Shown here: positions 16,354 to 62,427 of the stretch, in pieces | Numbering within the stretch: the stretch's first letter is position 1 | Layout: each line of letters opens with the position of its first letter | Source: Haloarcula limicola | GTDB lineage: Archaea > Halobacteriota > Halobacteria > Halobacteriales > Haloarculaceae | Direction of reading: 5' to 3' | Length of the DNA: 64,000 nt | Assembly: GCF_010119205.1 (NCBI RefSeq) | Contig: NZ_WRXM01000003.1 | Coordinates: forward strand, 310,001-374,000 | Program-made: the position numbers and the translations under genes | The notes under the pieces: model-generated | Told to the model about the DNA's origin: nothing | Database searches by the model: none | The model's input: the letters and a program-made list of their open reading frames with translations, nothing else

Positions 16354-16376
16354 AGAACACTTCGATAGAGGGGTCT
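16354..16376 (+). repeat. Isolated copy of the origin repeat (ORB-like)
   Basis: AACACTTCGATAGAGGGG at 16356-16373 lies between the convergent stops of the amphi-Trp and mscS genes. With flanks it is identical over 23 bp (16354-16376) to the copy at 62384-62406 in the predicted replication origin 46 kb away. It is the only copy seen outside the origin. Confidence 0.75.
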
Positions 16377-18136: not shown

Positions 18137-19303
18137 TCAACGCAGGTCGAACAGACGCCGAAAGACCGGCACGTGAAACCGGGCCTCGACGCTGCTCGGC
18201 CGGCGGCCGTGACCGGTCCCGGCTACCGTCTCCACGCGTTCGAGGATCCCGGTTTCGGCCATCTCGTAGATGAACCGTTTGATCGAGCCCTCGGAGAGCG
18301 CGGCCGGATGCGACGCGGCGACTGCTTCGGCGGCCGCGGCGACCGACGACCGAGCGGTGGCGTCCGCATCGATGAGTTCCCGGAGGACGACCTGCCGATT
18401 GTCGGGTAGTTCGAGCACCCGAGCGAGCGAGACGGCGTCCGTCGACAACCGCTCGGTAGCGGAGCGGACGTCTTCGTCGGCGAGCCGCGTCCGCTCCCGG
18501 CTGTCGGCGCGGTCCGCGGCGACGAACAGCGCGGCGAGCGCGTGGTGTGCGTCGCCGTCGGCCCACTCGGCGATCGCCCGGGCCTGCTGGTGGGCCAGTG
18601 CTCGCTCGGACATCGCGGCCGACGCCCGCGCGGATAGAACGTCGACCAGCTGCTGGTGGTGATAGGCGTCGAGGCGAATCGCGTCGCCGACGCGGTCGCG
18701 GACGGCGGCCGCTTCGGGCGTCGCTCGCCCGATGCCGAGCCAGCAGACGCATTCGGGAAGCGACTCGAAGCAATCGAGGACGGTCGTCTGAGGGCCCCCG
18801 TCGTCGAGATGATCGACGGCGACGACGACGCTGGCGTGGGCGCTCTGCCACCGATCTCGCAGGCGGTCTCGTAGCGTCGACGTCCGGACGCCGCTCGACG
18901 GAACGGGGTCCGATTCGACGGCCGAGAGGAGCGCGCGATAGAACGCGAACTCGCTGTCGATGCGCCGGCCGTCGAGGTAGACGAAGGTCGGCGACGACCG
19001 GCGCTGGACGCGCGTCGACGTGTGAATGACTGGTCGCGTCTCCGTCGGTAGTCGATCGAGGTTCCGCCAGAGCGCGGTCGCGACGGCCGATTTACCCGAT
19101 CCGGGCGGGCCGTGAAGGTAGAGGTTCGACGGCGTTCGCCCGTCGAATATCGGGTCGAAGTGGTTCAGCACGCGCTCTACGGTCGGTCCCCGACCGACGG
19201 GGTTCTCGACGTGCGCGGCCGGCGAGAGCGTTTCGTACTCTCGAAGGAGGGCTGGTCCGTCGTCTCGGCGCTGGCGGCGACGAATCCGGTCTTCGAGGTT
19301 CAT
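18137..19303 (-). CDS. Divergent Cdc6/Orc1-like AAA ATPase
   Basis: This 388-residue protein has an Orc1/Cdc6 layout: an N-terminal VGRGPTVERVLNHFDPIFDG segment, Walker A GPPGSGKSA (about residue 68-76), a Walker B position, and a C-terminal winged-helix region (about 310-388). The Walker B reads VVVAVDHLDD, so the catalytic Glu of the usual DExD is His. The second Orc1 in the window (62428) has the normal LDELD. It may bind ATP and DNA without normal hydrolysis, or be a regulator instead of an initiator. The start lies 3 nt after the glycerol kinase stop on the same strand, so the two are probably one transcript. An AT-rich repeat block flanks its 3' end. Confidence 0.7.
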   Translation of the reverse strand: MNLEDRIRRRQRRDDGPALLREYETLSPAAHVENPVGRGPTVERVLNHFDPIFDGRTPSNLYLHGPPGSGKSAVATALWRNLDRLPTETRPVIHTSTRVQRRSSPTFVYLDGRRIDSEFAFYRALLSAVESDPVPSSGVRTSTLRDRLRDRWQSAHASVVVAVDHLDDGGPQTTVLDCFESLPECVCWLGIGRATPEAAAVRDRVGDAIRLDAYHHQQLVDVLSARASAAMSERALAHQQARAIAEWADGDAHHALAALFVAADRADSRERTRLADEDVRSATERLSTDAVSLARVLELPDNRQVVLRELIDADATARSSVAAAAEAVAASHPAALSEGSIKRFIYEMAETGILERVETVAGTGHGRRPSSVEARFHVPVFRRLFDLR

Positions 19304-61106: not shown

Positions 61107-61364
61107 ATGTCGACCGCATCCTCCTCGCTTCCACGCCCGCCCGCGATCATCACCGTCGTCCAGTCGGCAGCAGTCACCGCCATCGAGGCGCTCGTGACGA
61201 CCGTTCGGGGCCTCGCCTTCTGGGCGGCCATCCTGCTCCCGATCGTCATCTCTGCGACGCTGCTGGCCGGCGTCGTCGCCTCCTCACCCCACTTCGTGGG
61301 TAGTCTGTTCGTTCTGAACGTCGTGTGTGCCGTCTTCGGACAGAACTACTCGCCGGGCAGATGA
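61107..61364 (+). CDS. Small two-helix membrane protein
   Basis: This 85-residue protein (MSTASSSLPRPPAIITVVQS start) has two hydrophobic segments: FWAAILLPIVISATLLAGVV and FVGSLFVLNVVCAVFGQ. A TATA-like CTTATATG lies at 61061-61068. Its stop overlaps the start of the following zinc-ribbon gene (ATGA at 61361-61364), so the two are coupled. Its function is unknown. It lies immediately before the predicted origin. Confidence 0.65.
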   Translation: MSTASSSLPRPPAIITVVQSAAVTAIEALVTTVRGLAFWAAILLPIVISATLLAGVVASSPHFVGSLFVLNVVCAVFGQNYSPGR

Positions 61365-61546
61365 GTCTGGAACGACCACGCTCACGAGAGCCGGATCGAA
61401 GAGATTCGAAGACGGTCCTGTTCTGTCCTACCTGCAACCACGAGAGCCCGATAGACGGTGAGTGGTTGTCCGACCGCTCGAGCGATTCCGACCGGTTGCT
61501 CTGTCCGCGCTGTGAAGCTGTCGTGGTCGACCGGTCACTCCGGTGA
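61361..61546 (+). CDS. Small zinc-ribbon protein coupled to membrane protein
   Basis: The ATG at 61361 (MSLERPRSREPDRRDSKTV) overlaps the upstream stop; an earlier in-frame codon at 61325 is inside the first gene. The 61-residue product has FCPTCNHESPIDGEWLSD and LLCPRCEAVVVD, two CPxC knuckles with the HESPIDGEW pattern found in a haloarchaeal small zinc-finger family. The role is unknown, but coupling to a small membrane protein next to an origin is a repeating arrangement worth checking in other genomes. Confidence 0.68.
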   Translation: MSLERPRSREPDRRDSKTVLFCPTCNHESPIDGEWLSDRSSDSDRLLCPRCEAVVVDRSLR

Positions 61547-61650
61547 TCCCACTCGTTTCCGGCTTTCTCTCTTTCTCTCTGGAGTCGCTCTGTTTTCGTT
61601 CGTCTCTCGGACCTGCTCCGGCCCGTCGATATCGAGATCGAACGGGGTCA

Positions 61651-62406
61651 CACACCCCTCTATCGAAGTGTTGGGTAACCGGGAACGACCGCCGGCGAAA
61701 ATTTCGATTGCCGGTCGATGGATCGAGAGCGGGCGAACCAGTATCGAACAGAGACGAGCGCAGTGACCCTCTTTCTACCGGTTTCGGACGATCACGGGGT
61801 AACAGTAGAAGAGACCGAACACTTCGATAGAGGAGAGACCGTCCGAACGAACTCGTCGAAAAGACACTTCGATAGAGGAGGGTGACTGCTCGGAGAAATC
61901 GCCGAGGAAACACATCGATAGTGGGGAGCGGGGCGGAGTGAAACTGATCAGCGAAAACACTTCGATAGAGGGGGGCGACTGTCAGAGCAAGCCGGCCGAC
62001 ACGACCCTCGACGGAGAGGTCGACCTGAGCGTTATTCTATCCGAGAAGGGAGCGCGCCCCGATCTCGCCTATCACTATCGGGAGGCGATAGGTCCGACAT
62101 TCTGAACCGGTAGATATCGATGTCAGAGCGTCTCTGAACCGGTTCTACACTTCGATAGAGGGGTGTGGTGACCCGACGAACCACTCGGTCGGATCAGTCG
62201 GCTCTGTGAGCTAATCGAGCGACACCGGTGGGGTAAAAGAGGTGAAACAGAGGGGGAAATTTGGATAGGAGAAACGGGGAAGAAGAGAGTGAGACGTTCG
62301 ATAGAGGAGGGTGACTGCTGGAGAATACCTGAGGAGACCGAGTACACGGAGACGACGCCGGTTCGAAACCGCTCAGTTATGACAGAACACTTCGATAGAG
62401 GGGTCT
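61651..62406. other. Predicted replication origin with eight ORB-like repeats
   Basis: The 881-bp spacer between the zinc-ribbon gene and orc1 holds eight copies of an 18-bp element, consensus AACACTTCGATAGAGGGG. Starts are 61655 (inverted), then direct copies at 61818, 61863, 61909 (degenerate), 61956, 62146, 62293 and 62386. The G-string at the end resembles halophile origin recognition boxes. A purine-rich run at about 62228-62290 may be the unwinding element. Orc1 ends 25 nt past the last copy. There is no gene in this interval. Confidence 0.75.
62228..62300 (+). other. Polypurine tract within the origin region
   Basis: About 70 nt here are nearly all purine on the plus strand (gtaaaagaggtgaaac, agagggggaaatttgg, aagaagagag), between the sixth and seventh origin repeats. 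Such a stretch could be the duplex-unwinding or triplex-forming element. Confidence 0.35.
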
Positions 62407-62427
62407 GTCGAGTCCGGCGTGTGTGAG

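Follow-up and report, generated by a model that had tools for sequence, protein, structure and literature searches.

A nearly one-directional array of initiator boxes 3′ of an orc1/cdc6 gene as the probable control half of a haloarchaeal origin module

The stretch of DNA analysed here, referred to as the window, comprises 64,000 nucleotides of Haloarcula limicola and corresponds to positions 310001–374000 of contig C3 (401,141 bp), one of the 7 contigs of a 3.9-Mb genome. An orc1/cdc6 initiator gene at its end and a small ORF converge, within the window, on an intergenic region occupied by short repeats (Table 1). The initiator matches the TIGR02928 profile with 419 bits as well as the Pfam profiles Cdc6_lid and Cdc6_C winged helix, such that a full-length Orc1/Cdc6 with AAA+ and winged-helix domains, as looked for beside an origin, adjoins the repeats. 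By this protein, Haloarcula amylovorans is the closest named relative (95% identity). Two Orc-like genes are present on C3, and only the one next to the repeats passes the family cut-off. The other, an AAA+ gene of 388 aa (window 18137–19303, minus strand) in which a winged helix was not detected, adjoins a glycerol kinase-like gene and lies 1.8 kb from a solitary copy of the repeat.

At least 43 annotated plasmids encode an Orc 80–90% identical to that of the window, which makes a megaplasmid of about 400 kb the most likely nature of C3. One tRNA is predicted on it. A search for terminal overlap of C3 found none, leaving its circularity unproven, and GC skew over the 401-kb contig gave no clear origin signal.

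Table 1. Coordinates of the features at and around the locus; plain numbers are window positions, C3 positions carry the contig name
Feature	Coordinates	Strand	Remarks
orc1/cdc6 initiator gene, 557 aa	62428..64000, runs past window end to C3:374101 (ATG start)	(-)	full ORF L009 6428-8101
Small ORF, possible zinc ribbon	61361..61546	(+), transcribed toward array	Pfam matches below cut-off
Whole 3′ ORB cluster, intergenic between convergent genes	61547..62427	.	proposed initiator-titrating element (oriC2D type)
3′ ORB 8, outermost, inverted	61655-61671	(-)	exact ACACTTCGATAGAGGGG
3′ ORB 7	61819-61835	(+)	1 mismatch
3′ ORB 6	61864-61880	(+)	1 mismatch; begins longer copy in common with 62297
3′ ORB 5	61910-61926	(+)	ACACATCGATAGTGGGG, A form at position 5
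3′ ORB 4	61957-61973	(+)	exact
3′ ORB 3	62147-62163	(+)	exact
3′ ORB 2, degenerate, core TTCGATAGAGG only	62293-62309	(+)	core TTCGATAGAGGAG starts 62297
3′ ORB 1	62387-62403	(+)	exact; 24 bp beyond orc stop codon
Gene-proximal 5′ boxes, pointing to gene	C3:374465, 374268, 374139	(-), as orc	
Distal 5′ boxes, opposite orientation	C3:374709, 374816	(+)	
Solitary exact ORB, 45 kb from array	16357-16373	(+)	short gap, convergent ends of small ORF and mscS-like gene

The repeats 3′ of orc amount to eight boxes, each taken as a 17-bp core, that share the core TTCGATAGAGG and span 61655–62403. An earlier note on this DNA had described eight near-identical elements beside an Orc1/Cdc6 gene, seven pointing one way and one inverted at the far end. 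Our scan and the profile match confirm the number, the arrangement, and the neighbouring gene. Near-identity holds for seven of the boxes: relative to ACACTTCGATAGAGGGG, four are exact, two differ by 1 base, and one by 2. It fails for the copy at 62297, where just the 3′ part of the box is retained, and which sits in a stretch that is absent from the sister species in alignment. The 23-mer that the note reported as common to two copies, TTCGATAGAGGAGGGTGACTGCT, is real, with starts at 61868 and 62297 rather than at 61863 and 62293. The array also contains, at window 62075–62091, the ORB core hexamer as an inverted pair (CTATCGGGAGGCGATAG); among the relatives, a similar pair occurs only in locus L047, at a different place.

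The array is not a product of chance. When the whole 3.9-Mb genome was scanned with up to 3 mismatches, 25 matches were obtained, compared to 1 for the reversed pattern. Matches with at most one mismatch all fall on C3 except for C2:302883, and those on C3 all fall in the origin region except for the solitary box at C3:326357. The match at C2:302883 (L010:7884) has one mismatch, falls close to where an ORF begins, and is probably a chance occurrence in coding sequence. A weight matrix derived from the boxes of other species picked out 12 places with scores of 22–39 bits within the origin region; in the rest of the 401-kb contig only one place exceeded 10 bits, and in a shuffled contig none exceeded 8. 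A literature search for the box sequence returned no match. Though labelled a "non-standard ORB" earlier, the box is not unusual, being common to about 50 relatives, and the main text of PMC3528665 describes haloarchaeal ORBs as specific to each Orc family. The proposal of G-string ORBs tied to the window Orc1/Cdc6 gene was borne out, and an ORB that is family-specific, ends in a G-string, and is tied to one Orc is likewise a feature of the origins in that main text. The repeats are very probably initiator-binding boxes for the Orc encoded next door.

The same note had correctly stated that the array lies 3′ of orc with the 5′ side outside the window, and extension past 64000, which it had suggested as a search for more repeats, uncovered five further boxes 5′ of orc (C3:374139–374832). 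These form inverted groups around a 227-bp gap, and all five carry ACACATCGATAGAGG. The nearest ends 37 bp ahead of the orc start codon, and a T-rich, promoter-like stretch follows directly; pL131 and pHLAC01 have a promoter-proximal box in a comparable location. Within the gap that separates the inverted groups, AT content is only mildly raised (48% versus 39% for the locus); the most pronounced AT tract (74% over 80 bp) is situated beyond the distal 5′ boxes, and AT content did not separate the 5′ from the 3′ regions across close relatives. The placement of these boxes bears on whether the 3′ array acts on orc or the neighbouring gene as a transcriptional operator or as an element linked to a terminator. 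Proteins of the Orc type are able to regulate transcription, and the array abuts the orc stop codon. Yet the flanking genes converge in the window, so that no known promoter reads out of the array, and the promoter-proximal box is found on the opposite side of orc, rendering an operator role extremely improbable.

Inverted ORBs directly upstream of orc constitute the standard layout of haloarchaeal origins (main text of PMC3528665). At the present locus, inverted ORBs with a G-string occupy the intergenic region 5′ of the gene, whereas only 1 of the 8 boxes at 3′ is inverted. As five inverted boxes in this usual design lie there, the 5′ side of orc is likely the origin, and the interpretation of the array therefore changes: that it represents the replication origin, as proposed earlier, is probably wrong. 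Position 5 of the box was considered as a mark that distinguishes origin from control boxes, being T in 7/8 of the 3′ boxes and A in 5/5 of the 5′ boxes (p = 0.005). Since the T share at this position is the same on the two sides in close relatives outside the own lineage (54/238 versus 41/176; p = 0.91), this candidate was rejected as a local quirk.

One scan for relatives gave 77 related loci, and the counts cover those with enough flank. An Orc tree built by a quick method splits them into a closer clade (Orc at least 78% identical) and a sister clade (65–70% identity), and box orientation tracks the two. At least one 3′ box is present in all 49 loci of the closer clade and at least two in 46 of the 49; of 184 boxes in total, 5 depart from the strand taken by the other 179. 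In the sister clade, where the box is AACAAATCGATAGnGGTG, 3′ boxes occur in 24/24 loci, and here the opposite strand predominates (55 of 57 boxes, with 2 exceptions). Boxes at 3′ are thus kept in 73/73 loci of both clades, compared to near 0 per locus for a reversed-pattern control. The 5′ design is nearly constant, with 4–6 boxes in inverted groups, and the number at 3′ ranges from 1 to 9; pL131, whose sole orc is of the window-Orc family, and pHLAC01 each have five boxes 5′ and four 3′. Against a one-way control cluster stands the outer 3′ box, which is inverted in the window and in the sister species alike.

Tandem expansions of the 3′ boxes, with spacings of 40–53 bp, are clear in L058, L062, and L089. 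The uniform 3′ orientation may be a product of such duplication, and is therefore not counted as proof of function. Better evidence comes from comparison with the sister species, where 106/108 box positions are identical (98%) versus 423/588 spacer positions (72%; Fisher p = 1e-11): selection acts on the boxes. The 3′ region used as a DNA query against plasmids gave no match, and therefore the boxes, not the spacers, are what persists. The regular spacings, the three expanded loci, and the variable copy number would also suit a drifting, functionless relic of tandem duplication, a reading made very improbable by the resistance of the boxes to change relative to the spacers and by their persistence throughout both clades.

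A tested counterpart of the array exists in Haloarcula hispanica. Its oriC2D consists of 11 ORBs in 722 bp located 3′ of cdc6E, is deletable only if oriC2 is also removed, lacks ARS activity, lowers the levels of oriC2 plasmids, and holds back its origin, with titration of the initiator as the probable means (PMC3936714). We located this cluster in genome G007, which is very probably H. hispanica given long Orc genes distributed six, four, and one over three contigs, as in Table 1 of PMC3528665. Its fifth chromosomal orc, taken as cdc6E by order, is followed by exactly 11 boxes that point the same way, in agreement with the published count, and is preceded by inverted boxes plus a TATA-proximal box. 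The two loci are alike in that a cluster of the origin's own ORBs lies directly 3′ of the cognate orc in an intergenic region of ~0.7–0.9 kb, that the one-way 3′ boxes are of the same kind as the 5′ ones, and that inverted and promoter-proximal boxes lie 5′. They differ in their boxes (AACACTTGCAGGGTGGTGT here versus ACACTTCGATAGAGGGGTGT), in box orientation relative to the gene, which is opposite, in box number (8 here versus 11), and in setting, a megaplasmid-like contig here versus the main chromosome.

Membership of the window Orc in the cdc6E family was rejected, its identity being 31.8% over 327 aa against a criterion of at least 80%, and the box being different. As the proteins are only 32% identical, the functional assignment is taken from the layout rather than from orthology. 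The H. hispanica orc that comes first on the chromosome (L143), presumably cdc6A, encodes a protein 30% identical to the window Orc; this value speaks against membership of the latter in the conserved oriC1 group. Nearer than cdc6E is the chromosome II orc at C1:150834 (L139:721-3030), which is 51% identical to the window Orc and is perhaps cdc6I by gene order, a gene whose origin is ARS-active. Its box, TCGCACACGGG, is quite different; orientation is mixed among the five upstream copies and uniform among the five downstream, and no description of the downstream cluster was found in main-text passages of the literature. The one-way 3′ layout thus recurs with diverged Orc proteins and unrelated boxes. 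For several genes, PMC3528665 reports boxes on either side; in main-text passages of that paper, the constancy and uniform orientation of the 3′ cluster across a family are not described.

These comparisons bear on the possibility that the 3′ array is itself an active origin, or a second one beside the 5′ origin. Haloarchaeal origins are usually recognised by ORBs adjoining orc, the main text of PMC3528665 includes some predicted origins with ORBs only downstream, and the inverted outer box formally gives the array facing boxes. We nonetheless regard an active origin here as unlikely, considering the full inverted set 5′ of orc, the lack of an inverted design at 3′ in nearly all relatives, and the resemblance of a nearly one-directional array between convergent genes to oriC2D, which is devoid of origin activity (PMC3936714). 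A positive role, in which the array would store or load Orc, increase its local concentration, and so aid the 5′ origin, agrees with the distance of <2.5 kb between array and origin and with retention of the array in all relatives with enough flank; such a role is very improbable given that oriC2D, the sole tested counterpart, is inhibitory (PMC3936714).

We therefore consider it probable, on the strength of the layout and its parallels, that the 3′ array is the control half of a two-sided Orc1/Cdc6 origin module, the 5′ side of which would initiate. The locus is most likely a megaplasmid origin module of an ordinary sort, equipped with a control array of the oriC2D type. In such a module, the 5′ intergenic region with its inverted boxes would be where Orc loads the replicative helicase, and the 5′ box upstream of the orc promoter would probably let Orc repress its own gene. 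The one-way 3′ cluster would bind the same Orc and keep it off the origin, either as a titrating sink or through pairing with the 5′ boxes (handcuffing), and would thereby limit initiation and copy number in the manner proposed for H. hispanica oriC2D. This is the brake logic of iteron plasmids and of Vibrio cholerae chromosome 2, where RctB sites occur not only at the origin and the promoter of the initiator gene but also in additional titrating or handcuffing arrays (PMC6090056). The likeness is one of logic only, as the initiator of V. cholerae is bacterial, and protein and boxes are unrelated.

Further RctB sites ~40 kb from ori2 act like datA (PMC6090056), and the solitary box 45 kb from the array might parallel them. 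The sister species (G002) has a solitary box at the same place (L129:7500), within a syntenic block. In two other members of the genus, exact boxes lie on the origin contig at a distance of 30–39 kb from the origin, in different surroundings. Given a chance expectation of ~0.002 exact matches per genome, estimated from pattern length and genome size, these distant boxes deserve attention, though their number is small. It is conceivable, if still doubtful, that the locus exemplifies a general haloarchaeal design, in which 5′ inverted and promoter boxes and a one-way 3′ cluster are kept while protein and box diverge, with the cluster acting as an iteron-like brake on copy number and distant boxes serving timing or titration.

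Little is known of how archaea that possess numerous Orc proteins control copy number per replicon, and a single tested 3′ ORB cluster was found in the searchable literature. The family presented here comprises dozens of naturally occurring variants in which the 3′ boxes number 1 to 9 and the 5′ origin is nearly constant, and as such would permit a straightforward dose test of the titration model.
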